This document shows positions 10,028 to 43,646 of a stretch of 43,646 nucleotides of DNA, in pieces (the stretch's first letter is position 1; the number at the start of each line of letters is the position of its first letter). The notes under the pieces are model-generated. The model was not told the DNA's origin, searched no databases, and saw only the letters and a list, made by a program, of their open reading frames with translations. This stretch comes from a virus, in the IMG/VR virus record IMGVR_UViG_3300020118_000364, positions 1-43,646 of that record. One strand, 5' to 3'. The position numbers were made by a program, and so were the translations under genes.

Positions 10028-11992
10028 ATGGACTATCTCACCACCTCCCTCACCTCGATCCTCCCCAGCACCACCAATCCCCGCAAACAGTTCAACAAAG
10101 ACAAGTTGGCGGAGCTGGCCGATTCGCTCAAAGAAGTGGGCGTGCTCCAGCCGCTCCTCGTCCGCCCGCTGCGGGAGATCAAACTCATCGAGCCCGATTT
10201 GGTCAACCCCGCCCTGCGCCTGACCGTGGGCGGGCTTGGCGTGGATAGCGCCGCCGACAAGGGCAAGGGGGAGAAGCGGGTGCGCGAGCTCCACGCCAAA
10301 CTGTTAGCCGAGCGGGGCGACGCCCTTTACGAGCTGGTGGCCGGCGAGCGGCGCTGGCGGGCGGCCGGGCTGGCCAAGCTCTTCAATGTCCCGGTGCTGG
10401 TCCGCCCGCTCACCGACCAGCAGGTGCTGGAGATCCAATACATCGAGAACCTGCAGCGGGATGATTTGACGCCCATGGAGGAGGCCGAAGGCTTCGCCAA
10501 GCTCATCGCCAGCAAGGCCTACACGCCGGATACCCTGGCCAAGAAGCTGGGCAAGAGCCGCAGCCACATCTTCGCCCGGCTGGCCCTGGCCCGGATTGGC
10601 GGCAAAGTGCGGGAGGCGCTTGAAGCCGGGAAGATTGACCACACTGTCGCCAGCGAACTGGCCAGTGTGCCCAACCAAAAGAACCAGGAAAAGGCGCTCG
10701 AGTATGTCATGCGTTTCGACATGTCCTTCGACAGCGTCCGGAGCTACCTGGCCGACGAATACCGCCAGGCCCTCACCACCGCCCCGTTCGACCGCAAGGA
10801 CGAGGCCCTGCTCAAAGGGGTTCCCTCCTGCGAGGCCTGCCCGTTGCGCAGCGGCAACCTCCCGGAATTCGACCCGGCGAAAAAGGAGAATGCGCACATC
10901 TGCACCGACCCGGCCTGCTACAAGCGCAAGGTGGGCGCCCACGTCAAGCAGCTCCAGGCCAAGTTTGAGGACAAAGGGCTGAAGGTGCTGCCCGCCGCCG
11001 AGGCCCGGGCCGCCTTCGATTGGCAGGATAAATTCGAGCCGGGCCAGTTCGTCCAGGCCCACGACAAGCCGCCCGGCAAGAAGAAGAGCTACGGCGAGCT
11101 GCTGGAAGAGAACCAGGCCGCCCAGGGCTACGTGGCCTTCAACCGCAAGCAGAAGGCCCACGTCGTCTACAAGCTCGCCGAGATCGCCCCGCTCCTCAAG
11201 GAGCAAGGCCTCACCGTCAAGCCCCCCGCCGCACAGCGCCACCTGAACTACAACAGCCCCGAATACAAGGCCCAGCAAGCCAAAGAGCAGCGCGAGCGGG
11301 AAGCGAAAAGGGCGCTGCAACAGGCTGTTAGCCAAAAGGCCATCGCCACCATCCGCGCCGCCGCCGAAGCCAAACCGTATGATTTGGCCCTCTGGCGGCT
11401 GCTTTGCGAACAAGCCCAGGAATCTTGCCAGCAACAGGTGCTGGTGGAAAAGCTCACCGAGCCGCAATGCCGCGCCCTCCTCCTGGAGGCGCGTCTCTGC
11501 CGCATGCCCTACGATTACTACGACGGCAAGCCCACCCAGCACTTCGCCGCCGTCTGCGCTCACTTCAAAATCGACCTGGCCAAACTCACCGCCACCGAGC
11601 AAGCGCGCCTCCGCGAGGAAACCCGGCTTCCGAAAGATAACGAAGAATTCGAGCTGCCCAAAGACCGCATTGAAGAATTGGCCGAGCAGGCCCAGGGCGG
11701 CGACCTCCACACCGGCAAACTCAACCACGCCCCGTTTGAGTTCCGCAGCCACCTCTGGGTGGTCAACCTTCGCGACCGCGCCGGCGGGCCTGGCCAAACG
11801 GTGAGCATCTCGTGTCTTCGGGTGGTGCCAGCCGAGGAATACGGCGACGCCACATCCGGCACTGCCAAGAACCCGATCACGCTAAACCACCTGGGCCAGC
11901 GCGTGCGATGGACAGAAGGAAAAGCAGCGGTCGACTACGTCATCGCCAAGCCCACCATCACGCTCGTGCCCGAGAAAGGAAAGAAGAAGTGA
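10028..11992 (+). CDS. Orphan ParB-like protein
   Basis: A 654-residue protein with a ParB/Spo0J N-terminal domain: N-P-R-K-Q-F at 17-22, L-A-D-S-L-K-E-V-G-V-L-Q-P-L-L-V-R-P at 30-47, G-E-R-R-W-R-A at 106-112 and I-E-N-L-Q-R-D-D-L-T-P-M-E-E-A at 139-153, then an HTH region (T-L-A-K-K-L-G-K-S-R-S-H-I). About 50 residues are inserted between the first strands and G-E-R-R. A Cys cluster (C268, C271, C292, C297) may bind zinc. No ParA is present in the genome, so plasmid-type partition is unlikely. Phage ParB-like proteins may organise DNA, nick it or regulate transcription. The C-terminal half is Lys/Glu/Gln-rich and unrecognised. Confidence 0.82.
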   Translation: MDYLTTSLTSILPSTTNPRKQFNKDKLAELADSLKEVGVLQPLLVRPLREIKLIEPDLVNPALRLTVGGLGVDSAADKGKGEKRVRELHAKLLAERGDALYELVAGERRWRAAGLAKLFNVPVLVRPLTDQQVLEIQYIENLQRDDLTPMEEAEGFAKLIASKAYTPDTLAKKLGKSRSHIFARLALARIGGKVREALEAGKIDHTVASELASVPNQKNQEKALEYVMRFDMSFDSVRSYLADEYRQALTTAPFDRKDEALLKGVPSCEACPLRSGNLPEFDPAKKENAHICTDPACYKRKVGAHVKQLQAKFEDKGLKVLPAAEARAAFDWQDKFEPGQFVQAHDKPPGKKKSYGELLEENQAAQGYVAFNRKQKAHVVYKLAEIAPLLKEQGLTVKPPAAQRHLNYNSPEYKAQQAKEQREREAKRALQQAVSQKAIATIRAAAEAKPYDLALWRLLCEQAQESCQQQVLVEKLTEPQCRALLLEARLCRMPYDYYDGKPTQHFAAVCAHFKIDLAKLTATEQARLREETRLPKDNEEFELPKDRIEELAEQAQGGDLHTGKLNHAPFEFRSHLWVVNLRDRAGGPGQTVSISCLRVVPAEEYGDATSGTAKNPITLNHLGQRVRWTEGKAAVDYVIAKPTITLVPEKGKKK

Positions 11993-12684: not shown

Positions 12685-12715
12685 AAATCATAAATCATAA
12701 TTCCTAAATCATAAT
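12684..12715 (+). repeat. Heptamer array (AAATCAT family)
   Basis: Fills the gap before the terminase gene: AAATCAT, AAATCAT, AATTCCT, AAATCAT, AATT. The possible TTG (12715) and GTG (12721) starts of the terminase lie at its end. Confidence 0.88.
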
Positions 12716-12720
12716 TGACC

Positions 12721-14727
12721 GTGCCCGCCGCGCCCCCATCGCCCCTTGAGAACTCCCCCGGCGCTACTCTGTCGCCAGGCGATCGCGCGGCGGGCCCCTC
12801 TTCCCAAATCATAAATCAGAAATCAGAAATCATAAATTTGTTGCAGCAGTTGTTCGCCGACCTCCACCAAAGCGATCTCCACATCACCCTGCAACACCCC
12901 GTCCTCCCACTGCCCACTCCGGAGGAGATCGAGCCGCTCCTGGACCTGCCGGACGGCCGCGAGCAGCTCATCAAGGCCTTGCAGGACCGCGAGCAGCTCA
13001 TTCGCCTGATGGCCCACGACCCGTTGCGCCACGGCTTCCGCCCGGCCTGGTGGGCCGATGCCCGCGAGCTCCTCCACGGCAACCGCTGGGGCGAGCATGA
13101 TGAGCTGCTCATCCTGGGCGGCAACGACTCCACCAAAAGCTGGTGCCTGGCCTACATGGCGGTGGAGATGTTAGTCCGCGAGCACACCATCGAGGTGGGC
13201 TTCCTCCACAAGACGGAGGATACGAGCAAGGCCCAGCAGCAGAACCTGGTTTACCGCTACCTCCCGCCGGAGTGGCGGGACCTCGGGCGGATCGGCAAAC
13301 ACGTGGATGTCTCCTGGCGGGAAAAGACCGGCTTCTCCGACAATAAATTCGTCCTGCCCAACCGCAGCAAAGGTTACTTCTTTTTCTACAAGCAGGAGCC
13401 GGATGTCCTGGCCGGCTACAAGTTCCGCTTCGCCGCTTACGATGAGTTAATCACCTTCGGCCACTTGGAAGAGCTGCGCACCCGCATGCTCGGCCGGGGC
13501 GGGAAGATCCTGGGCGGCTTCACCCCTTCGGAAGGCTACACCACGGTGGTGCAGGACCTGGTCTCCGGCGCCAAAGTGCTGGAAACCCGGCCCAGCAAAT
13601 TCCTCCCCGGGCGCAACTTCGAGAACAAGCCGGAGATACCGGAAGGCCACATGCCGTATATCCTGCAATGCCGGCGCAAGAATGCGGCCGTGATGTTCGC
13701 CTTTACCGAGCACAGCCCCTTCCGCAAACAGGGCGACCTCGAGAAAATGATTGCCACCCGGAGCAAGGCCTATATCCAGATCCGCGCCTACGGCTACGCG
13801 GAAAAGACCGTCGGCAACGCCTTCCCCAAATTCTCCGAGCGCGTCAACGTGTTAGTGCGCGCCCCCGGCCACCCCTGGCACGGCATCGGCCCCGTCCCGC
13901 CGCATCCCTGGCGGCCGGCTCCCAAATCCGAAATCATAAATCATAAATCAGAAATCCTTTTCCCCCAGCTGCCCCAAGAGGGCACCAACCGCGTGGTCGC
14001 CGATCCCGGCGGCTCCAAGAACTGGTTCATCAAATGGTACCGCGCCGGGGCCGAGCCGGGCCACCATTTCGTTTACCGGGAATGGCCGCCCGCCAGCACC
14101 CACGGCCCGTGGGCCGAGCCGAGCAAATCGATCCTGGCCGACGTGCAGAAGCGCCGCTGGGATGGCTACCCCGGCCCGGCCCAGCGTTACGACTTCGATC
14201 CGTCAATCGTCCGCTACAAGAAACTCATTCTCGAAGCCGAAGGCTGGATCTGGGATGAAACAGCCGGCCATTGGGATGGCCGCGATGCCGAACCGATCGA
14301 ACAGCGCCTGATCGACCCGCGCATGGGCGGGGCCACCGTGCCCACAGCCGAGGATGGCACCAGCATCATTGCCCTGATGGAGGATGAGCAGTACGACGGC
14401 CAGGGGCGGCTCATCGGCCCCAGCATGGTCTGGGAGCCGGCCCCGGGCGGCGGCCACGCCATCAGCAACCAGCAGAGCCTGGAGATCTTCAACAGCTATT
14501 TCCACTACGACATCGCCCGCCCCTTAAGCGTGCTCAACTGCCCGAAGTGGTACGTGGTCGAAGCCTGCGAACAATCGATCTACGCCTACAAGGAATACAC
14601 CGGCATCGATGGCGAAAAGGGCGCCCTTAAGGACGTGGTCGACCCGGACTGGTACTATGTGAAGACGGAGCCGGAGCACATTGGGGACACCTCGATGGCG
14701 GTGAGGAGCGGATACGACCAACAATAA
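12721..14727 (+). CDS. terL: Terminase large subunit
   Basis: ATP-driven packaging motor and DNA-cutting nuclease. The frame is about 668 residues. In numbering from TTG 12715, a Walker A-like loop is at G-G-N-D-S-T-K-S (135-142), with Thr replacing the usual Gly before Lys, and Walker B is about Y-D-E-L at 242-245. The nuclease domain begins near V-V-A-D-P-G-G-S (about 426-433), giving a metal-binding Asp. Heptamer arrays are translated twice: near the N terminus (S-Q-I-I-N-Q-K-S-E-I-I-N) and in the linker between ATPase and nuclease (K-S-E-I-I-N-H-K-S-E-I-L). The start is uncertain: TTG 12715, GTG 12721 or TTG 12838 after the first internal array. Confidence 0.9.
   Translation: MPAAPPSPLENSPGATLSPGDRAAGPSSQIINQKSEIINLLQQLFADLHQSDLHITLQHPVLPLPTPEEIEPLLDLPDGREQLIKALQDREQLIRLMAHDPLRHGFRPAWWADARELLHGNRWGEHDELLILGGNDSTKSWCLAYMAVEMLVREHTIEVGFLHKTEDTSKAQQQNLVYRYLPPEWRDLGRIGKHVDVSWREKTGFSDNKFVLPNRSKGYFFFYKQEPDVLAGYKFRFAAYDELITFGHLEELRTRMLGRGGKILGGFTPSEGYTTVVQDLVSGAKVLETRPSKFLPGRNFENKPEIPEGHMPYILQCRRKNAAVMFAFTEHSPFRKQGDLEKMIATRSKAYIQIRAYGYAEKTVGNAFPKFSERVNVLVRAPGHPWHGIGPVPPHPWRPAPKSEIINHKSEILFPQLPQEGTNRVVADPGGSKNWFIKWYRAGAEPGHHFVYREWPPASTHGPWAEPSKSILADVQKRRWDGYPGPAQRYDFDPSIVRYKKLILEAEGWIWDETAGHWDGRDAEPIEQRLIDPRMGGATVPTAEDGTSIIALMEDEQYDGQGRLIGPSMVWEPAPGGGHAISNQQSLEIFNSYFHYDIARPLSVLNCPKWYVVEACEQSIYAYKEYTGIDGEKGALKDVVDPDWYYVKTEPEHIGDTSMAVRSGYDQQ
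12806..12838 (+). repeat. Heptamer array inside the terminase frame (N-terminal)
   Basis: Units AAATCAT, AAATCAG, AAATCAG, AAATCAT, AAAT. Two units are the TAA-free AAATCAG form and the frame stays open. If translation actually starts at TTG 12838, this would be a normal intergenic array. Confidence 0.85.
13924..13957 (+). repeat. Heptamer array in the terminase interdomain linker
   Basis: Units AAATCCG, AAATCAT, AAATCAT, AAATCAG, AAATCCT lie wholly within the gene, between the ATPase and nuclease parts, and are read as a 12-residue linker K-S-E-I-I-N-H-K-S-E-I-L. There is no stop in this frame. Confidence 0.9.
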
Positions 14728-19313: not shown

Positions 19314-19601
19314 ATGCTTGCCCCAAACCAGCTCCACGAACTCGCCCACACCCTCCAGGCCCACCCGCCAACGAGTCCTCTGTGGACCGGCCTGATCGCT
19401 CTGCTCGACGACACGATCAAGGACGCCAACGACAACAGCACCCACGCCGCCACCCCGCCCGACGAGCGCCCCTGGTGGGCCGGCCACGAACGGGGCCTGC
19501 GCGACTTCAAGCAGGACCTCGAAGACCTCCGCTCCGGCGCCTACCGCCTGTGGCCGATGATGCCGCCAGAGAAGGAGGGGGAGGAAATTTCTGATTTATG
19601 A
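19314..19601 (+). CDS. Small head-region protein
   Basis: A 95-residue acidic helical protein (L-H-E-L-A-H-T-L-Q-A-H, L-I-A-L-L-D-D-T-I-K-D-A-N-D, R-D-F-K-Q-D-L-E-D-L). Function unknown. The last residues I-S-D-L and the TGA are encoded by a reverse-oriented array. Confidence 0.62.
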   Translation: MLAPNQLHELAHTLQAHPPTSPLWTGLIALLDDTIKDANDNSTHAATPPDERPWWAGHERGLRDFKQDLEDLRSGAYRLWPMMPPEKEGEEISDL

Positions 19602-19619
19602 ATTATGATTTATGATTTG
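19585..19619 (-). repeat. Heptamer array (AAATCAT family, reverse orientation)
   Basis: ATTTCTG, ATTTATG, AATTATG, ATTTATG, ATTTGG across the stop of one gene and the gap to ATG 19631. Confidence 0.88.
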
Positions 19620-19630
19620 GAAAACACCCC

Positions 19631-19828
19631 ATGAAGCCGGTTGAAATTCTTCAGCAACGCGCACCTTACAAACTCACCCCGGAGATGGAAGAGATGCGGC
19701 GCAAGCTTGAAAAGCCACAAGATTTAAACGAGGCACTTCTTTCCGTTAAACTCGAAGAGGCGGCCCAACGCATCGCTCGCGACCTGCAGCACCGCATGTT
19801 CGCCCAAATCATAAATCAGAAATCATAA
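19631..19828 (+). CDS. Small helical protein with tail IINQKS
   Basis: A 65-residue protein rich in Glu, Arg and Leu (E-M-E-E-M-R-R-K-L-E; A-A-Q-R-I-A-R-D-L-Q). The final residues Q-I-I-N-Q-K-S and stop come from the array at 19805-19839. Confidence 0.6.
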   Translation: MKPVEILQQRAPYKLTPEMEEMRRKLEKPQDLNEALLSVKLEEAAQRIARDLQHRMFAQIINQKS

Positions 19829-19839
19829 ATCAGAAATTC
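19805..19839 (+). repeat. Heptamer array (AAATCAT/AAATCAG)
   Basis: AAATCAT, AAATCAG, AAATCAT, AAATCAG, AAATT. It encodes the preceding protein's C terminus and its TAA stop. Confidence 0.88.
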
Positions 19840-20074
19840 CCCCAAACGTCGCCGAAGTTACCGCCCATCACTGCCCATCACTGCCCATTCAAATATTTCC
19901 CCTTCTCAAGCGCCCCCCTCTCGTGCGATTAGCCGCCCGTGCGGAAAATTGTCGAACCAGAATCCCGGATTCATAAATCCGAATTCATAAATCTTAAATT
20001 CCCCGCCCGCGTCCTTCTCGGTTGCCCCGCGTTTCCCCAGAAGCAACCCCGCTCCGCCTTAGCCGGCTAACGCT
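19840..20074. other. Gap before the scaffold gene
   Basis: This 235-bp stretch has no convincing gene. It contains a direct repeat of CACTGCCCAT (19867-19886), an AT-richer part around 19890-19905, and a further heptamer array at 19969-20000. It is a plausible place for a late head promoter, but I see no clear -10/-35 or hairpin terminator. Confidence 0.5.
19969..20000 (+). repeat. Heptamer array (degenerate AAATCAT family)
   Basis: GATTCAT, AAATCCG, AATTCAT, AAATCTT, AAATT within the gap, 75 bp before the scaffold start. Confidence 0.8.
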
Positions 20075-21295
20075 ATGCCAAAAGTAACCACCAATACCGC
20101 CCCATCACCAGCGCCCGCAGTCGCTGCCGCCCCGGCCCCGGGGAGCGAGAAACCTGCGCCCAAGCCCGCCGCCACTCCTGCCGCCCCGACCAAGCCCGCT
20201 CCTCGCCGAGCGGCCGCCCCGGTGCCGGCCCCTGGCGCCGCGCCCGCCGACTTCAACGCCGCCCTCCAGCAGGCTACCCGCAGCCTGCTGGAGGACAGCA
20301 TCACCCTCGATGCCGAGGAACCCGTCGCCCCGCCCGCCGCCGTTCCCAAGCCCGAGCCCGCCGCCGCTGCGGCCCAGGAGGAGGCAGCCCAAGAGCCTGC
20401 CGCCGCCGAGGCCCCAGCCGAGGAAACCGCCCCAGAGGAAGAAGCACCAGAAATCGCTAACACCGGGGATGACCCGGAACCGGATGCAGAAGCCGAGCCG
20501 GATGCCGACGAAGCCGCCCTGGCCGAGGAGGCTGCCTCCAATGCCTGGCCCAAAAGCGCGACCAAGCGCCTGACCAAACTGCTGAAGGAGCGCACCGCCC
20601 TGAAAGCGCAGCTTGAAGGCGCCGCCCAGCTCCGTGAGGAGCGGGATGCGCTCAAAGCCAAGCTGGAAGAAGCGCCCCAGCAGCAGGAGCAAGCCCCGCG
20701 CACCATCACCGCCGCCGAGCGCCAGCTCCAGCAGGAGATAGCCGTCACCGAACAGTGGCTCGAAACCATCGAGGCCCATCCGGAAGGCTTGACGCTCACC
20801 GACGCCCAGGGCAAGGAAGTCACCTACGGCCCAGAGCAGCTCCGCAAGGCCCGCACCAGGTTCATCCGCCAGCTCACCACGGCCGAGATCCGTCTCCAGC
20901 AGCACCAGGCCGAGCTGGCCCGGCAGACGGCCGAACACTCCCGCGCCGCGATTGAGCAACACCCGTTCCTCAAGCAGAAGAGCAGCCCCGAGTACCAGAT
21001 GATCCAGCAGGTGCTGCGCGCCTTCCCGGAAGTCGCCCGCATCCCCGATCACCTGTCGGTGTTAGCCGATGCCATTGCCTGGCGCCAGCAGCAGGCCGCC
21101 AAAGCCAAAGCCGCCGCCACCAAACCGGCCGCCCCGGCCAAACCGGCCCCGCCCGCCCGCCCCGGCAAACCGGCCGCCCTCCCGGCAGCCGTCAACCCCG
21201 AGAGCGCCGCCCGCCAGCAGCGCACCAGCGACTTCCTCAAAACCGGCAACCCCGAAAGCGCCGCCGCCACCATCCTGGACCTGGTCGAATCATGA
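20075..21295 (+). CDS. Scaffolding protein (predicted)
   Basis: A 406-residue low-complexity protein. Residues 1-160 are Ala/Pro/Glu-rich and disordered. Residues about 165-300 are a strongly helical, charged coiled coil (L-K-E-R-T-A-L-K-A-Q-L-E-G-A-A-Q-L-R-E-E-R-D-A-L-K-A). The tail is Ala/Pro-rich and ends in a short ordered helix. Lying between portal and major capsid with this composition is the usual picture of an internal scaffold that guides shell assembly. Sequence alone does not give the family. Confidence 0.72.
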   Translation: MPKVTTNTAPSPAPAVAAAPAPGSEKPAPKPAATPAAPTKPAPRRAAAPVPAPGAAPADFNAALQQATRSLLEDSITLDAEEPVAPPAAVPKPEPAAAAAQEEAAQEPAAAEAPAEETAPEEEAPEIANTGDDPEPDAEAEPDADEAALAEEAASNAWPKSATKRLTKLLKERTALKAQLEGAAQLREERDALKAKLEEAPQQQEQAPRTITAAERQLQQEIAVTEQWLETIEAHPEGLTLTDAQGKEVTYGPEQLRKARTRFIRQLTTAEIRLQQHQAELARQTAEHSRAAIEQHPFLKQKSSPEYQMIQQVLRAFPEVARIPDHLSVLADAIAWRQQQAAKAKAAATKPAAPAKPAPPARPGKPAALPAAVNPESAARQQRTSDFLKTGNPESAAATILDLVES

Positions 21296-24857: not shown

Positions 24858-25205
24858 ATGAGAAACGTACGCCTTCGCGGCGCCGATAAGAGCGCCAACA
24901 GCAACGGCCTGAGCAACGCCATCCAGGCCGCCGCCGCCCCCGCCCGGCTCTTTAGCGTCACCTGCTACAACAACACTGCCGGCGTCATCTACCTCCAGTG
25001 CCACGACAAAGCCAGCGCGGCCGCCGAGGGGGATGCGCCCAAGTTGCTGGTCAAGATCCTGCCCGACACCACCGGCGGCTTCGACTGGTCCAGCGCCCGC
25101 ATTTTCAGCAACGGCATCTACATCTGCAGCAGCAGCACTGCCGCAACCAAGACGCTGGGCGGCGCCTCCGACGCCATCATCGATGCCACCTTCTCTTTCG
25201 ACTAA
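24858..25205 (+). CDS. Small beta-rich virion protein
   Basis: A 115-residue protein (M-R-N-V-R-L-R-G-A-D-K-S-A-N-S-N-G-L). Beta strands such as L-F-S-V-T-C-Y-N-N-T-A-G-V-I-Y-L-Q-C-H-D-K and A-R-I-F-S-N-G-I-Y-I-C-S-S-S-T-A-A-T-K suggest a jelly-roll or tail accessory protein. ATG 24858 follows the junction TAACACTATG; the gene ends at the same motif. No specific family. Confidence 0.65.
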   Translation: MRNVRLRGADKSANSNGLSNAIQAAAAPARLFSVTCYNNTAGVIYLQCHDKASAAAEGDAPKLLVKILPDTTGGFDWSSARIFSNGIYICSSSTAATKTLGGASDAIIDATFSFD

Positions 25206-25209
25206 CACT

Positions 25210-27183
25210 ATGAATAACGCGAATACGAGGACGGAAGAGGGAGTGAGAAATTTAAGATTTATGATTTCTGATTTAGGATTTGGGTGGGCGGAAATCATAA
25301 ATCATCAACTCCTAAATCCTAAATTTGCCTCCATCCTCGCCCTTCTCCTCCTCGCGCTGCTTCCGGCTAAGCCCGCCGCCTTCGACACCCCCGCCGCTGT
25401 GCCCTCTGGCAAGGGCGTGTATGTGGATGCCTCTTACGGGAGCGACAGCTCCGGCACACGCGGCAACGCCAGCGCGCCCTTTAAAAGCATCCCGGCCGCC
25501 AAGGCGGCCGCCTTGTCTGGCGATACCATCTACGTCTATCCCGGCCTCTACACCAGCCAGACCAATCTCCTCAAGGCCGGCGTCAATTACTGGTTCTATC
25601 CCGGCGCCATCCTCACGAACAGCATGGCTGGCGGCAGCGCCGATTGGGCCTTCTTCGACGATCGGCCCCTGGGCGGCCCCACCACTAACACCATCGGGGG
25701 GCTGGGCGAGTTCGATTGGTTCGACGCCTCCGGAGCCGGCACCACCGAGCTGGGCGCAGTCCTCTGCATCACCAACCCCGCCTCCCGCATTATCTTCCAC
25801 GGCCTGCGCTCAATCGTGGGGGACGACTCCGTGAACGAAGCCGGCCTCTTTGCCCACGCCTTCTACGTCAAGAATGCCGCCTTCATCTTCCTCGACATGG
25901 ACGAGGTGTTGAACCTCAACCCCACCAGCGGCAGCCAGGGCACCGGCTTCTACTGGGAGCGGGCCGATTGCTACGTGAACATCCGCCGCATGGTCTGGCG
26001 CGGCACCGGCTACGCCGTCTGGGGGCACGACCCGGCGGCCGGCGCCACTAACAGCATCTACTACACCGGCCAGTATTTGGAGGCCGATAACATCGCCCTC
26101 TACCAGGACGCCACCCACCTCAGCTTTAAATCCTGGTTCAACATCAATGAGATCACCGTCGTTCCTAACACTGCCACCTGCTTGAGCATCCTGGGAGGCA
26201 AATTCTACGTCACCGCGCAAAAGATTAACGCCGGCGGCATCGTCATCAGTATGTCGTCCGGAGAGGCCTGGATTCAGACGGAGAAGATGACCGGCGGCAA
26301 CTGGGGCTTTATCTCCGGCACCGGCACCCTCCACTGCAACGCCCTCCAGTATGAGGACACAGCGCTAACTCCCCCATCGTTTCGTGGATTCTACATCCAG
26401 AACGGCACCAACTACATCTCCGGCAGCGAGGCCACCGTCACCAATGGCAATGTCCTGACCATGACCGCCACCGCCGGCCGCACCTTTGTCCAGGGCCTGA
26501 AGCTGCGCAGCGTCAACACCACCCCCGGCGGGAACACGAACAGCCCGGTCTCCCTCGCCATCGGCGGCTTGAGCCTGGAGAACTGCAGCCTTGTCGCCCC
26601 CTCCGGGGCAGACTCCATCAGCGCCGCCTCCGCCCAGGCCGTCACGGTCGTTGGCAGCCTCTCGGCTAACAACGCCATCAACGCCAACGTGGCCATCCTC
26701 TCCGCCGGCACTAACAGCTACACTCCGGGCGCGCCCTGGTTCAAGAACGTCACCGCTTTTACCAATCTCAATGCACTGGGCACCCTCTCCAACCTCGCCA
26801 ATGTCTCCATCCCGGCCCATTACTTTACCAACGGCGCGGCCCTCCGGCTCTTCGCCAGCGGCAGCTTCACCAACAACGGGGTGAACACCAACGAGCTCAC
26901 TCTCGTCTACGGCAGCCAGACCGCCCTGGACAGCGGCTTGCAGACGGCCAGCAACGGCGTCTGGCGGATGGAAGCCCTCATTCAGCCGCTCGGCGTCACC
27001 AGCCAGCGCATCGATGCCCGGCTCGATTGGTCCGCCTGCCAGGGTGTGCCCTTTGCCGTCACCAACGTCGTCTTCTTCGCCAGCCAGACCAACGGCATCG
27101 CCACCACCCTGGCCCTGCAAGGCGCCTCCCGCCGCAGCGGCGGCCTCACCAACGACCAGTTCCGCGTCTACTGGGAACCATGA
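25210..27183 (+). CDS. Tailspike-like protein, right-handed beta-helix
   Basis: A 657-residue protein. After about 36 residues derived from inverted heptamer arrays (R-N-L-R-F-M-I-S-D-L-G-F ... E-I-I-N-H-Q-L-L-N) there is a hydrophobic stretch (A-S-I-L-A-L-L-L-L-A-L-L-P, about 40-52). The mature part starts G-K-G-V-Y-V-D-A-S-Y-G-S-D-S-S-G-T-R-G-N-A-S-A-P-F-K-S-I-P-A-A-K-A-A-A (about 68-103), a signature of pectin-lyase-like parallel beta-helices, then Asn/Thr/Gly-rich repeats. It is likely the receptor-binding or polysaccharide-degrading tailspike; catalytic residues cannot be named. A signal-like segment is odd for a virion protein assembled in the cytoplasm. Confidence 0.75.
   Translation: MNNANTRTEEGVRNLRFMISDLGFGWAEIINHQLLNPKFASILALLLLALLPAKPAAFDTPAAVPSGKGVYVDASYGSDSSGTRGNASAPFKSIPAAKAAALSGDTIYVYPGLYTSQTNLLKAGVNYWFYPGAILTNSMAGGSADWAFFDDRPLGGPTTNTIGGLGEFDWFDASGAGTTELGAVLCITNPASRIIFHGLRSIVGDDSVNEAGLFAHAFYVKNAAFIFLDMDEVLNLNPTSGSQGTGFYWERADCYVNIRRMVWRGTGYAVWGHDPAAGATNSIYYTGQYLEADNIALYQDATHLSFKSWFNINEITVVPNTATCLSILGGKFYVTAQKINAGGIVISMSSGEAWIQTEKMTGGNWGFISGTGTLHCNALQYEDTALTPPSFRGFYIQNGTNYISGSEATVTNGNVLTMTATAGRTFVQGLKLRSVNTTPGGNTNSPVSLAIGGLSLENCSLVAPSGADSISAASAQAVTVVGSLSANNAINANVAILSAGTNSYTPGAPWFKNVTAFTNLNALGTLSNLANVSIPAHYFTNGAALRLFASGSFTNNGVNTNELTLVYGSQTALDSGLQTASNGVWRMEALIQPLGVTSQRIDARLDWSACQGVPFAVTNVVFFASQTNGIATTLALQGASRRSGGLTNDQFRVYWEP
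25245..25325. repeat. Pair of inverted heptamer arrays inside the tailspike gene
   Basis: A reverse array (ATTTAAG, ATTTATG, ATTTCTG, ATTTAGG, ATTTGG) is followed after about 10 bp by a forward array (AAATCAT, AAATCAT, CAACTCCT, AAATCCT, AAATTT). The whole is open in the gene's frame and can fold back into a long hairpin at the 5' end of the coding region. Confidence 0.88.
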
Positions 27184-37384: not shown

Positions 37385-40300
37385 ATGGGCGACCCATGGG
37401 ATGAACCGCAGCCCGTTCAAGTGGACACCGCCGCCCCGGCGCGTGACCCGTGGGAAGGGCCTGCGGACCGCCCTGCGCCAGAAACTCTACCGCCCGCCTC
37501 CCGACTCGATCCCTGGGAACAACCCGAAGAAGCCGCCAGCAAGCCCGCCCCCGCCTGGCACTGGTGGGAGCCCGGCACCGCCGCCCCCGAGCTAGGCCCG
37601 GGCATGTCGCTGGATTGGGCCACGCCCGCCGCCACCCCGGAAATCCTCGCGGCCAGGAACGCCGCCTTCCGTAAACAGTTCGACCTCAACACCGGCCACA
37701 CTCCGGACCTCTGGCGCAACGCCACCGAGCCGATCCTCAAAGTGGCCCACGCCCTCACCCCGCAGGAGCTCGCCGAAGCCTGGGACGCCGCCAAGATTAT
37801 CCTCAGCCAAAAGGAGGGTGAGACCTGGCAGGACATCGAGGCCCGGCTCGCCGCCAGCCCCACCGCCAAACCGAACGCCACGCAGAAAGCCCTGGCCGGC
37901 ATCCAGCAGCCCGTGGCCGGCGCTGTCAATTTTTTCACCAGCCCCGTCGGTGTGGCCACCCTCGGCACCGGCGCCCTGCCCGCCCTCGCCCAGAAAGCCA
38001 TCAGCGCCATCTTTGTTACCCAGATGCTCACCTCCCTTCCGGAAGACGTGCAAACCCTCTCCGAAGGCTGGTTCGACAAAGACCCGGAAAAGATCAGTCG
38101 CGGCCTGGCCGGCCTCGGCCTCAACGCCACCTTCATCGCCCAAGGCATCAAGCACGGAATGGCCGAAGGCAAAGCAGAAATCAGAAATCAGAAATCAGAA
38201 ATCCTGCAGCCGCCCGCGTCCGCCCCCAGCGAATTCGGCGGCCTCAAATCAGAAATCATAAATCCTAAATCAGAAATCGCGTATGCCCCTCAAGAAAGCC
38301 AAAACGAACCAGGCCTTCAAATACAACGTCTCGGAACTGGTCCACAGCGGCCGCCCGATCAACCAGGCCCTGGCAATCGCCTACCGGATAAAGGGGGAGA
38401 AGCGCCGCCGCAAGCCCTCACCCTCACGGAGCTGAAGTATCTCGCCGAAGACATCCGCGCCCGCCAGCCGGTGAGCGCCGCGCTGGCCGCCCGCGCCGGC
38501 ATCCAACTCCCCGAAGGCTACAAGCTCGAGGGCGACCGCTGGCTCTACACCGAACCACCCCGCCCCGAAACTGAAGCCGCCAGAATGGCCCGCGAACAGA
38601 GCGAAGCGATGGCCGCACTAAGGGCCAGCAAGGCTGCAGAGCCGATCGCCGATCCCTGGGAAGAACCCGCCAAGGCCACGCCCGAGAGAGAAGTCGCAGA
38701 CACCTGGGAACCACCCGAGTCGCCGGCTCCGCACGATCTCGGCGACAGGCCGCCGGACCTCATCGATTGGATCGAGCAAAATTTTCCCAACGGTGTCCGC
38801 GTGCCGTCGACGGCAGACTTCGACGAGTTGTTCGCGAAGACGCGCGCCGTGCAAGCATCTGCCTCAGCGCCGCGCTACAGCGTTGCCAAAGACATCCTGC
38901 GCCGCACGAGTGGCGAACCAGCCGACCAGGTCCTGAAAGAGCTCCACGACCAGGGCATGTATCGCCGCCTCGAATCTCCGGAAGATCTCCTCAACACCAT
39001 CCACGCCGCCGCCGAAGCCAGAATCGGCTGGGCCGAACAGTCTCGCGCAGCCAGAGACCACATCGATGAATGGCTCACCCGCGCCATCGATGCCACCGCT
39101 CTCGACCGCAGCGAACCTTTCGAGGGCATCAGCGGCGCGCCCGTCTGGCTAACCAAGTCCGCCGCCCACGGTGTCCTTTCCGCCATGCGCATGACCTACC
39201 GCGCCAGTCGGAAATTAGGGCTGGCCATCGAGGATGGCCTCGCCTGGCTGCGCAGCCAGAACCTGCCCGGCTTCAACGAACGCCAAGCCCGGCTCTGGCT
39301 CCTGCAGCTCGAAGCCCGCGAGTGGATGCAGAACCTCCGCGCCGCCGGCGGCATGCGCCCCCTTGACAAGTCCAGCCCGGAGGCCCAAGCTGCCCCCGAT
39401 GAAGCGCAAGCACGTGGAGAAATTCAAGGACGGCAGCCGGCTAACGACCTTGCCAAACGGCGCCTGGTTGCTGAGCGAGAGCGACCTGGCTCACTCCCAA
39501 AACCTGGCACACCCGAGCACGAGCGTGAGCTACAGCAAGCCGCCGCCCGCGCCTATGCGGCCGGTGAAGCCCTCCGAGCCCTCATAGACCAGCTTCCCCG
39601 CCGCCCCAGCGGCCAGCTCGACTGGCGCGCCATGGGCAGCAACCGCGCCGACCGCGTCTTCAAGCTCGAGAACCAGCGCCTCGATGCCATCGACGATTAC
39701 CAGCAGGCCGCCAACCGCACCGGCATCGTCTACCCGCCACACCAGGGGCCGCCTCCGGACAACACCTCCCGTTTCACGCCCCGCCAGCCCTACCCGAATC
39801 CCTCCCTGGAACGCTACAGCGAGTTCCCGCCGCGCGAGTGGGACCCGGTGCGGGGCGTTTATAAAACTGGCAACGTCGAACTCTGGGCAGACAAGACCAT
39901 CGCTGAAGGCAGGAAGCGTTTCCACGCCAATCTCGATCCGGAACTGTTAGCCGCTTACGCCGTCAAAGGCGCAATCATCCTCGCCCGCGGCGCGCATGAT
40001 TTTGCCAGCTGGTCCGCCGCCATGCTCTCCGAATTCGGCGAGACCATCCGGCCGCATCTCAGCGCCCTCTGGAACCAGATCCGCCAGCGCGCCTTCACCA
40101 TTCAATCCAGTCCCGATATCTCCGACCAGGTCAAAGCCGGCACCGCTTCGGACCTGCTCTACACCCCGCGCAGTTTCGAGCAGCTGAATCAGGAAGCCGC
40201 CGCCATTATCCAGCAGCACGGGCCGGACGCCGCCCTCAACATTTTTGTAGATCCGCGCAGCGGCCTGCCGGGTGATACCCGGGCCGCCCTGGGCGCAAGC

Positions 40301-43300
40301 CTGGAGCGCCACTACCGGGCCGCCGAGACAGTTGCCCGCACCTCCACCCCGCCGGACCTGGCCGCCGCCAATGCCGCCGCCGATCAGCAAATCAAACTCT
40401 GGCGTGCTGATGCTTACGGCACCGACGTGGCTCAATCCCTCAGCGCCCGCCGGCTCTACGACGGCGCCAGTTCGACCGCCAAACTCCGCCAGGCCCAGGA
40501 CGTGTTCGACCAATCCGCCGGCACCAGCTTTGAGGAGATCCGCCCGCAGGTCGATGCCGTCGCCGGCGCCATCCAACAAGGCCATGCCGATGCCGTGGAG
40601 CAAATCCGGATCGACCCGGCCACCAACGATGCCGCCCGCGCCGCCGTGGATGACGCCGTGGCTAACAGTCCAGAGACCCACCGCGCCGTCATCATGGAAC
40701 TGGCACAGCCGTTTGCCAGCAGTCCGGCCATCCTCGCGAACGCGAGAGTGGCGGTCCGCGCCAAGGCCGATGAGCTGCTCAATCGCGCCCCGCGCCCGCC
40801 CGGCCTCACCGCCCCGCAAGCTCTCCGGAGAATCCTCGATGAGCTGGCCGAACGCGCCGCTACCATTGCCGGCAACCACTACCAGGGCGCAGAGCCGGGT
40901 GTCACTCTGCGCGACAAGCTGCAGCAGCGCCTCGGCCTGGACCAGGCCGCCGCCACCCGCCTGGCTGCCAGCCTCGACAACGGTTTTGCCGCCATGGTCA
41001 AGGCCGCCACCGCCAAACTCTCCCAGCGCGTGGCCACCGAGCGCGCCCGGCAGACCGGCGCGCTCACAGCCGACGCCACCGATTTTGCGGTGGACCGCGC
41101 CATCCGCCAGCAGCTCCGCCAGCACAACCTGCAGCTTGGCGAACTGTTAGCCAAAGCCACCGCCGAGACTGTCCCCGCCACCCAAAAGAGCATCGGCCAG
41201 CGCATCGTCGAGGCCTCCGGCCTCACCGGCGAAGCTGCCCGCAAGCTCCAGGAAACGTTCGACCGCCGTTGGACCGCCCTCTCCGATGCCGCCAAACGCA
41301 GCCGGCTCGAGGCCTTGCAGAAGCAGGCCGGACGCCCGCCCCTCCCGCCCAAGTTGCGCAGCGCCGCCGAGGATCTCATCAAGCTCACCCGCCTGGGCGC
41401 GCTCGATGACACCGCCTTTCACGACCTGGTCAAGAAGCGGATGAACCTGCGCGAGATTACTCCGGAGATTGCCCGCGAGCTGGTCCGCCGCGCCAACGAT
41501 ATCGACAAGCAGCCGCCCGGTTTTTTGCGCGACCGCGCCAGCACCCAGCTCCTCAACTGGGTCTATCGCCAGGCCGGCACCCGCTTGGCCGATGTCCCCA
41601 TGGGCATGTTCTACAACAACGTCCTCTCCGGCCTCACCACCGCCGCGAAAATCCCCTTTGAGAACATGAACCTGTTAGTGGGCCAGACCATTATCAGCCT
41701 CCTGCGCGGCCGGCTCGGCCCCGCCGCCACCCTCCAGGCGTTCGGGCGCGGCCTGAAGAAGGGCGGCCTGCAGGGAGCGGAGATTCTCAAGACCGGCATC
41801 GTCACGGGCGCGCGGGAAGGCCAGCATCCTAGCGGTGTCATGGAGCTAAAGCCGTTCGGCGAAAAAGGTGACATCATCAACTACTGGAAATGGTTTGGCC
41901 GGGAGATTTCCGCATTGCACGTCAGCACCTTCAAGCCCGCCTGGGAAATCAAACAGTCGATGGTTGCCTACCAGCTGGCCCGCACCGAAGGCCTGCGCGG
42001 CCAGGCCGCCCAAGCCCGCGCCACCGAGCTGCTCGCCAACACGCCAGAGCGCATCGATGCCGCCCGCGCCCAGGCCGCCGGCGAGCTGGCCAGGCTCGGC
42101 AACACCAGCAAGCTCGACTACCGCCGCCGCGTCCTGGAAATCCTCGAGCAGCAACGCGAAAGCAACATGCCCGGCTCAACCGCCCTCGCCCGGGATTTTG
42201 CCCTGCGCACGACGTATCTGGGTAAGCCCTACGGGTTCCTTGGCTACATCGCCGAAGCCGTTCACAGCGGCATCGAGGGAGCCCGCGCCCAATTCCCCGT
42301 GCTCGGGCGCGGGTTGAAATCGCAGATCCCCTTTACCACCGTGGTGGCTAACATCCTGAACGAGAAATTGAATTGGACTCCCGTCGGCGCCTTCCGCGCG
42401 GCCGCCGCCCTCCGTTCGGGCGAGCTCTACGGCCGGCCCATGATGGAGCGTGGGGAAGTCGGCGACCTGTTAGCCAAATCAGTTCTGGGCACCATCCTGT
42501 TAGGCACCCTCGGCACCCTCGCCGGCCAGTACATCCACGGCAGCGGCCCCAGTTCCCCAAGCCAACGGAAACAGCTCCAAGCCACCGGCTGGGTCCCCAA
42601 CAGCATCGGCCCGCTCGACGGCCGTTACTACTCCTGGGTCAACACGCCCGCCGCCGCCGGCCTGGCCTGGATTGGCAACTGGCAGGACTGGCACCGTTAC
42701 GGCAAAGGCGACGCTGCTGATGCCGAGAGCCGCGCCGTCTATGCATTGCGCGGGAGTGCGGATGTCATCGTCAGCCAGGGAATGCTCGACGGCCTCAAGC
42801 GCGTCCTGGAAAGTTTCGGCAACGCCAACAAGGCCGAAGGCGGCGCCGCCATCGAGCGATCGCTCGCCCGCACTGCCGGCGCGTTCGTTGCGCCCAACCT
42901 GCTCATGCAGATCGATAAAATTTTCGACCCATCGGTCTACGACAGCACCGGCATCGTGGCCGCCCTCAAGAGCCAGGTGCCGTTCTACCGGCGCGACAAC
43001 AAGCCCGCCCTCAATGCCCTGGGCGAACCGCTCGAGCAAGGCCCCTTCGGCCAGTGGACCAAAGCCCAGACGCAGGACCGCCTCTGGCTCGCCATCGCCG
43101 CCCGCCAGGCCTGGATACCCGAAGTCCCGAAGGACGTCATCGTCGGTTCCAAGTCCGAAGGTCCCGGAAACTTCCGGATTATGTCGCCGGACGAGCGTTA
43201 CAATTACGTTCGCGCCTGCGCCGCCGACTTGCGCGTCGAGCTGGATCCCGTAACGATCCTCTCCAGCGATCCGACGGAGGCGCCGCACTACGTCCACAGC

Positions 43301-43342
43301 GTCGTCGAGGAAGTCCGCGCGCGCCACAAGCCCAGCTTCTAA
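37385..43342 (+). CDS. Giant internal-virion / polyvalent ORF
   Basis: An open frame of 1,985 residues. The N-terminal part repeats D-P-W-E-type motifs (G-D-P-W-D-E, R-D-P-W-E-G, L-D-P-W-E-Q; later A-D-P-W-E-E and A-D-T-W-E-P). Residues about 180-215 and about 1693-1715 (L-L-A-K-S-V-L-G-T-I-L-L-G-T-L-G-T-L) could insert in a membrane. The rest is helical, Ala-rich. Such giant proteins near the tail genes of podoviruses are ejected with the DNA. Two stretches, about 38166-38435 and 39399-39587, have poor G/C third positions in this frame but good ones in another frame, so the ORF may be a fusion or three genes that read through by chance. Confidence 0.75.
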   Translation: MGDPWDEPQPVQVDTAAPARDPWEGPADRPAPETLPPASRLDPWEQPEEAASKPAPAWHWWEPGTAAPELGPGMSLDWATPAATPEILAARNAAFRKQFDLNTGHTPDLWRNATEPILKVAHALTPQELAEAWDAAKIILSQKEGETWQDIEARLAASPTAKPNATQKALAGIQQPVAGAVNFFTSPVGVATLGTGALPALAQKAISAIFVTQMLTSLPEDVQTLSEGWFDKDPEKISRGLAGLGLNATFIAQGIKHGMAEGKAEIRNQKSEILQPPASAPSEFGGLKSEIINPKSEIAYAPQESQNEPGLQIQRLGTGPQRPPDQPGPGNRLPDKGGEAPPQALTLTELKYLAEDIRARQPVSAALAARAGIQLPEGYKLEGDRWLYTEPPRPETEAARMAREQSEAMAALRASKAAEPIADPWEEPAKATPEREVADTWEPPESPAPHDLGDRPPDLIDWIEQNFPNGVRVPSTADFDELFAKTRAVQASASAPRYSVAKDILRRTSGEPADQVLKELHDQGMYRRLESPEDLLNTIHAAAEARIGWAEQSRAARDHIDEWLTRAIDATALDRSEPFEGISGAPVWLTKSAAHGVLSAMRMTYRASRKLGLAIEDGLAWLRSQNLPGFNERQARLWLLQLEAREWMQNLRAAGGMRPLDKSSPEAQAAPDEAQARGEIQGRQPANDLAKRRLVAERERPGSLPKPGTPEHERELQQAAARAYAAGEALRALIDQLPRRPSGQLDWRAMGSNRADRVFKLENQRLDAIDDYQQAANRTGIVYPPHQGPPPDNTSRFTPRQPYPNPSLERYSEFPPREWDPVRGVYKTGNVELWADKTIAEGRKRFHANLDPELLAAYAVKGAIILARGAHDFASWSAAMLSEFGETIRPHLSALWNQIRQRAFTIQSSPDISDQVKAGTASDLLYTPRSFEQLNQEAAAIIQQHGPDAALNIFVDPRSGLPGDTRAALGASLERHYRAAETVARTSTPPDLAAANAAADQQIKLWRADAYGTDVAQSLSARRLYDGASSTAKLRQAQDVFDQSAGTSFEEIRPQVDAVAGAIQQGHADAVEQIRIDPATNDAARAAVDDAVANSPETHRAVIMELAQPFASSPAILANARVAVRAKADELLNRAPRPPGLTAPQALRRILDELAERAATIAGNHYQGAEPGVTLRDKLQQRLGLDQAAATRLAASLDNGFAAMVKAATAKLSQRVATERARQTGALTADATDFAVDRAIRQQLRQHNLQLGELLAKATAETVPATQKSIGQRIVEASGLTGEAARKLQETFDRRWTALSDAAKRSRLEALQKQAGRPPLPPKLRSAAEDLIKLTRLGALDDTAFHDLVKKRMNLREITPEIARELVRRANDIDKQPPGFLRDRASTQLLNWVYRQAGTRLADVPMGMFYNNVLSGLTTAAKIPFENMNLLVGQTIISLLRGRLGPAATLQAFGRGLKKGGLQGAEILKTGIVTGAREGQHPSGVMELKPFGEKGDIINYWKWFGREISALHVSTFKPAWEIKQSMVAYQLARTEGLRGQAAQARATELLANTPERIDAARAQAAGELARLGNTSKLDYRRRVLEILEQQRESNMPGSTALARDFALRTTYLGKPYGFLGYIAEAVHSGIEGARAQFPVLGRGLKSQIPFTTVVANILNEKLNWTPVGAFRAAAALRSGELYGRPMMERGEVGDLLAKSVLGTILLGTLGTLAGQYIHGSGPSSPSQRKQLQATGWVPNSIGPLDGRYYSWVNTPAAAGLAWIGNWQDWHRYGKGDAADAESRAVYALRGSADVIVSQGMLDGLKRVLESFGNANKAEGGAAIERSLARTAGAFVAPNLLMQIDKIFDPSVYDSTGIVAALKSQVPFYRRDNKPALNALGEPLEQGPFGQWTKAQTQDRLWLAIAARQAWIPEVPKDVIVGSKSEGPGNFRIMSPDERYNYVRACAADLRVELDPVTILSSDPTEAPHYVHSVVEEVRARHKPSF
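38177..38205 (+). repeat. TAA-free heptamer array in the giant ORF
   Basis: GAAATCAG, AAATCAG, AAATCAG, AAATCCT: nearly pure AAATCAG units, which contain no TAA, read as E-I-R-N-Q-K-S-E-I-L. Confidence 0.88.
38245..38279 (+). repeat. Heptamer array ahead of a nested gene
   Basis: AAATCAG, AAATCAT, AAATCCT, AAATCAG, AAATCG. It is open in the giant frame but ends four bases before ATG 38283 of the nested gene, the same array-then-ATG order seen at ordinary gene borders. Confidence 0.88.
38283..38435 (+). CDS. Nested 50-residue basic protein
   Basis: The ATG is in a different frame from the giant ORF and directly follows a heptamer array. The product begins M-P-L-K-K-A-K-T-N-Q-A-F-K-Y-N-V-S-E-L-V and continues H-S-G-R-P-I-N-Q-A-L-A-I-A-Y-R-I-K. 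This M-P-L-K-K ... N-x-x-x-L-x-x-x-G-x-P-x-x-Q-A-x-A-I-A pattern is that of a small basic protein family frequent in phage genomes. Third codon positions are mostly G/C here (AAG, GCC, AAC, CAG, TTC, GTC) but not in the giant frame over the same bases. I consider it a real gene. Confidence 0.7.
   Translation: MPLKKAKTNQAFKYNVSELVHSGRPINQALAIAYRIKGEKRRRKPSPSRS
39399..39587 (+). CDS. Nested 62-residue protein
   Basis: A second open frame out of phase with the giant ORF: M-K-R-K-H-V-E-K-F-K-D-G-S-R-L-T-T-L-P-N-G-A-W-L-L-S-E-S-D-L. The segment F-K-D-G-S-x-L-T-T-L-P-N-G-x-W looks like a genuine short beta protein, and codons are mostly G/C-ending, unlike the giant frame (CAA, GCA, CGT, GGA, GAA, ATT) over the same bases. 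There is no ribosome site or array upstream, so it is less certain than the gene at 38283. Confidence 0.52.
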   Translation: MKRKHVEKFKDGSRLTTLPNGAWLLSESDLAHSQNLAHPSTSVSYSKPPPAPMRPVKPSEPS

Positions 43343-43519: not shown

Positions 43520-43646
43520 GGGAAAGCGGTGATTCCAATCAACGAGGTTCGGTTTACGCCAGCGGATATAAAGTGCTTGACGTGCTTTTGGCAACCGGCC
43601 AAGCTGCACAACATGCTGCACAAACAAACTGCACAAAATACTGGGA
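43520..43646. repeat. 127-bp terminal direct repeat, copy 2 (circle junction)
   Basis: Exact second copy of bases 1-127. Joining the copies places the integrase start directly after the attP region and supplies its ribosome-binding site, AGGGGG at 43517-43522, six bases before the GTG at 43529 (position 10 of the window). Confidence 0.9.

Follow-up and report, generated by a model that had tools for sequence, protein, structure and literature searches.

Within the window – the whole 43,646-nucleotide stretch analysed, an IMG/VR virus record – a small gene of the phrog_2423 family lies inside a giant open reading frame (ORF). We consider it likely that a free-standing phrog_2423 gene was captured, together with a leader of seven-base repeats (heptads), in the variable linker of the giant gene, and that it is translated internally while the giant crosses the same bases in another frame. 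The features concerned are these:

37385..43342, + strand: giant ORF, 1985 aa, of virion/polyvalent type; starts 4 nt after the upstream gene's stop; weak PHROG matches
37853..38164, + strand: conserved domain near the N terminus of the giant (residues ~157-260), with a hydrophobic segment; weak BLASTP matches to the giants of two related phages (G023 and G003)
38171..38203, + strand: heptad array 1, built of AAATCAG units and free of TAA; translates as AEIRNQKSEI in the giant frame
38204..38245, + strand: spacer between arrays 1 and 2, with a GCCGCC...GGCGGC inverted repeat in its sequence
38246..38278, + strand: heptad array 2, putative leader for the nested ORF; contains TAA in the two non-giant frames and leaves the giant frame open
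38283..38435, + strand: nested phrog_2423 gene of 50 aa, with helices predicted at residues 9-22 and 26-37 and a basic tail
38420..38554, + strand: giant-frame coding signal resumes by codon likelihood and GC3 (lead again from about 38405)

The nested gene and its family

The nested ORF opens with ATG 38283, after an array, and runs for 50 codons to a stop at 38433-38435, exactly as an earlier, sequence-only reading of this DNA had described. It lies in frame +1 with respect to the giant ORF, and the two form an internal overlapping pair: the nested frame is wholly inside the giant, in another phase and on the same strand. The length of such an ORF is not in itself unusual. In the relevant frame 47% of 51-codon stretches are open, and ATG ORFs that reach 50 aa out of frame turn up in this phage's genes about 1.1 times per kb, a frequency that would favor a chance ORF with a chance family match. 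It is homology to phrog_2423 that takes the nested ORF beyond chance: residues 1-44 of its 50 align with positions 1-44 of the 52 in the PHROG profile (E=1.5e-11), which bears out the suggestion that the frame has a recognisable small-phage-protein pattern. Against its own profile, which includes the nested sequence itself, E=3e-22. Eleven other out-of-frame ORFs tested within the giant (among them one of 62 aa at 39399 and the ORF 37818-38261) gave no family match. Given this homology, and the codon and leader signals described below, the probability of a chance ORF appears negligible; on sequence comparison the idea is already contradicted.

The core residues of the family (MPL, N15, SELVHSGRP, QA and AI) are present in the nested protein, which agrees with the family at 19 of 24 conserved columns and at one of 12 variable columns; the comparison set was partly found through SELVHSGR, so that agreement there is inflated, and the PHROG match is unaffected. 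The nested gene is the only phrog_2423 copy in the whole record. Pfam DUF6496 is matched weakly by 20 of 34 aligned phrog_2423 members (best 4e-5) and not by the nested protein. AlphaFold models the latter as two helices (mean pLDDT 82), for which fold and sequence searches of the PDB returned no significant match.

Relatives of the nested protein (E up to 1) occur in 179 GenBank phage records; 96 IMG/VR stretches match it, of which 80 were kept. Members elsewhere are either free-standing, at 48-76 aa, or occupy, in frame, the N terminus of longer proteins (about 190 aa). The match in an Obolenskvirus starts at codon 1 of the annotated head maturation protease. In an Acinetobacter phage (NC_041857.1, 1501-2835; locus L324) an annotated head maturation protease begins, in frame, with a phrog_2423-like module. 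Among the family's neighbors in other phages are genes for virion, lysis and packaging functions, from which an assembly-related role for the nested protein is only a guess. At two of the 80 loci (L063 and L064) an open frame of more than 250 codons overlaps the phrog_2423 member; inspection of these alternative frames led us to judge both cases spurious.

Codon usage switches frame at the nested gene. A likelihood scan, its codon usage learned from 13 other genes, puts the giant frame ahead until about 38105, and over 38283-38432 the nested frame leads it by 26 nats; just one of 629 frame +1 control windows of real genes scored as well. Third positions had been described as G/C-rich in the nested frame and poor in the giant frame, and measurement agrees: over the nested-gene bases GC3 is 0.84 in the former and 0.47 in the latter, against an average of 0.855 for the phage's genes. 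The full profile over codon positions 1/2/3 is 0.54/0.46/0.84 in the nested frame and 0.64/0.455/0.855 in the training genes.

By position, the single equalling control window most likely falls within the region 39399-39587 (+ strand). This is a second out-of-frame stretch, of 62 aa and also in the +1 frame, that starts MKRKHVEKFKDGSRLTTLPNGAWLLSESD and in which the nested frame leads the giant frame by about 23 nats. It was rejected as a second nested gene: it has the codon signal but neither a family match nor an array leader, and its IMG/VR matches come from a brief segment of a terminase-like ORF that is unrelated.

Heptad arrays and the putative leader of the nested gene

The heptad units of this phage are AAATCAT, AAATCAG and AAATCCT, and a unit ending in T gives a TAA. 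Array units had been said to lack TAA, which is true of the whole of array 1 but not of array 2: here TAAs stand at 38259 and 38266, in the non-giant frames, and one of them terminates the nested frame shortly before ATG 38283. Such proximity to a start is common, 11 of 18 arrays ending no more than 20 nt from an ATG as against 13% of random positions. ATG 38283 is preceded by no Shine-Dalgarno-like motif. Its leader is the least structured (MFE -0.4 kcal/mol; mean -15.9) and has the highest A/T content among the 92 out-of-frame ATGs tested, and it resembles the array-led leaders of the genes at 10028, 15921 and 19314. We infer that array 2 acts as the leader of the nested gene.

If an array is to be read through, units whose TAA would be in frame must not end in T. 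There are six such phase-critical units in the giant and in a large-terminase-like ORF (TerL, 12715-14727), and all six end in G, while 41 of 48 units in other arrays end in T (p=6.6e-5, in a test that partly restates the openness of the frames); for the giant alone, three of three end in G, with (7/48)^3 = 0.003. The general T bias of the arrays is thus overcome where a TAA would stop the giant or TerL frame.

Arrays also occur at several other places in the window. The one inside TerL (13924-13955) is read in frame as KSEIINHKSEI, in a region homologous to the locus L084, and another lies at the N terminus of the same ORF. Intergenic space at 19601-20075 holds an array (19806-19837), GCCCATCACT repeated 2.6 times (19863-19888) and further heptads. 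For the gene listed at 25033-27183 the start is probably wrong: the first 150 bases favor another frame by 86 nats, and the true start is likely to follow an array, near 25257-25281.

The window carries an exact 127-bp direct terminal repeat (1-127 and 43520-43646), which suggests a complete circular or terminally redundant genome. The host is likely to be verrucomicrobial: in a verrucomicrobial genome of 7.7 Mb the array type occurs 182 times, against two control hits, and related portals are found in 10 of 388 verrucomicrobial genomes, with no nested gene in the stretches examined of those genomes. Three GC-rich (62-63%) viral contigs (L091, L104 and L113) have the same heptad arrays; in the stretches examined they show no detectable protein homology to the window, and they are perhaps phages of the same host group.

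The giant ORF and its relatives

The giant matches phrog_10089 (3.9e-5) and phrog_6651 (6e-5) weakly, the matches being of internal virion protein and DarB-like kinds; a Pfam search with it gave no match. Kin phages were found by major capsid and portal searches. Their giants comprise 1722 aa in G003, and open frames of 1784 codons in G023 and 1363 codons in G027. Both G003 and G023 show weak matches, within a single ORF, to residues around 153-297 and around 824 of the window's giant; in G003, moreover, synteny covers the three preceding genes, and the giant adjoins its upstream gene as it does in the window. MW202801 shares the C-terminal part, and there too the giant is a single ORF. Between these two conserved parts lies a linker that cannot be aligned among relatives and whose length in kin is similar (about 510-550 residues). 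Because kin keep both conserved parts in the same ORF, the giant is most simply read, from these comparisons, as one protein with a small gene in its variable linker.

The sequence-only reading had also raised the possibility that the giant is not one protein. One gene would then run from 37385 to about 38200 and another from near GTG 38471 or ATG 38585, with the small gene between them, and the apparent continuity would stem from missing TAAs or from an assembly error in the number of 7-nt copies. The arrangement has some appeal: arrays are usually intergenic and often supply the upstream stop, DPWEEP-like motifs stand at the start of both halves, and array copy number rests on metagenome assembly, in which errors are plausible for a pure repeat such as array 1. 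Yet related phages hold both halves in one ORF (G003 and G023 keep the N-terminal and middle domains together, and G027 has one long ORF), the window contains no stop, the junction with the upstream gene is like that of G003, every phase-critical unit is without TAA, and TerL shows the same in-frame passage through an array. A split giant is disfavored by these observations, and we hold it to be decidedly improbable.

Searches of IMG/VR and GenBank phages for close relatives of the giant found none, the one distant match being MW202801, and no close relative carrying both overlapping frames was found. Neither does the nested gene follow the giant: phrog_2423 was not found in G003, G023, G027 or MW202801, and no heptad array in the G003-related loci scanned. 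Conversely, the heptad-bearing viral contigs have no giant homologue and no convincing phrog_2423. The linker peptide in the giant frame has no match in phages. Two points weigh against a capture: no empty insertion site was found at the DNA level, and the linkers of kin are of similar length. No relative keeps the giant-frame residues while breaking the nested frame; the relatives conserve neither linker nor nested gene.

Origin of the overlap and comparison with known systems

That two genes overlap here in different frames, as had been proposed, is supported on the side of the inner gene by homology, codon usage and leader, and on the side of the outer gene by its relatives and the phase-critical units. 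As to origin, a free-standing phrog_2423 gene would have been captured, heptad-array leader included, into the variable linker of the giant gene. Translation of the inner gene probably begins internally on late mRNA, at ATG 38283; the array, A/T-rich and unstructured, would provide a leader free of Shine-Dalgarno sequence and halt ribosomes that read the other two frames. Ribosomes from the giant's own start, at 37385, would cross the nested DNA in another frame, adding a linker of about 90 residues that consists of KSEI repeats followed by a Gln/Pro-rich segment. Over the nested gene the giant frame has a non-coding-like composition, and therefore the giant may cross it only recently.

Alternatively, the captured gene may be a relic that is no longer translated, its DNA now serving solely as linker of the giant. 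Five of the 24 highly conserved family columns do differ, and the capture is possibly too recent for decay to be seen. However, start, family core, basic tail and stop are all intact, the differences cluster in variable columns, third positions retain the nested-frame pattern, and the leader resembles those of real genes: we think a relic unlikely and infer that both frames are translated at present.

A broader speculation, to which we give a small but somewhat better chance, is that heptad arrays are portable translation-start cassettes. By combining stops in two other frames with an unstructured leader they would allow a captured gene to be expressed at once, provided that one unit in three loses its TAA and so keeps the host gene open. 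The heptads at start sites would have a possible role in a phage.

Seven-base repeats at starts are known from bacteria. TAACTGA heptanucleotide repeats occur before start codons in Beggiatoaceae, Cyanobacteria and Bacteroidetes; in Beggiatoaceae they lie directly upstream of starts, mostly without Shine-Dalgarno sequences, place stops in three frames and overlap upstream stops (PMC4679880). The phage arrays are likewise direct repeats with TAA just 5' of starts that mostly have no Shine-Dalgarno sequence, and they too often overlap the stop of the preceding gene. The phage heptamer, however, is a different repeat that works alike (TAAATCA in rotation), and in the giant and TerL the arrays are read in frame, their critical units being without TAA.

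The giant itself resembles the polyvalent and internal virion giant proteins of phages (PMC5512222) in being very long and modular, in having variable linkers and in closing the virion gene block; it differs in hosting, within a linker, a separate gene that uses another frame, and its profile matches are only weak. As for the inner gene, it is like the phrog_2423 family (which partly overlaps Pfam DUF6496) in length, start, core (SELVHSGRP..QA.AIA) and basic tail. None of the 80 other loci examined is nested in a convincing larger gene, whereas here the gene is inside a 1985-aa ORF, in another frame.

Gene E within gene D of phiX174 is an example of internal (nested) overlapping phage genes (PMC8227390), and as here one gene is wholly within another in a different frame. 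The usual explanation for such pairs is de novo overprinting of the inner gene. In the present case, by contrast, it is the inner gene that has free-standing homologues and the local segment of the outer protein that looks like the newcomer. It would appear that read-through of a captured gene added a segment to the outer protein, a testable route from capture to overlap. The case suggests that annotation programs limited to one gene per stretch would miss the inner gene, and it suggests how – as distinct from overprinting – a ready-made gene can settle within another gene.
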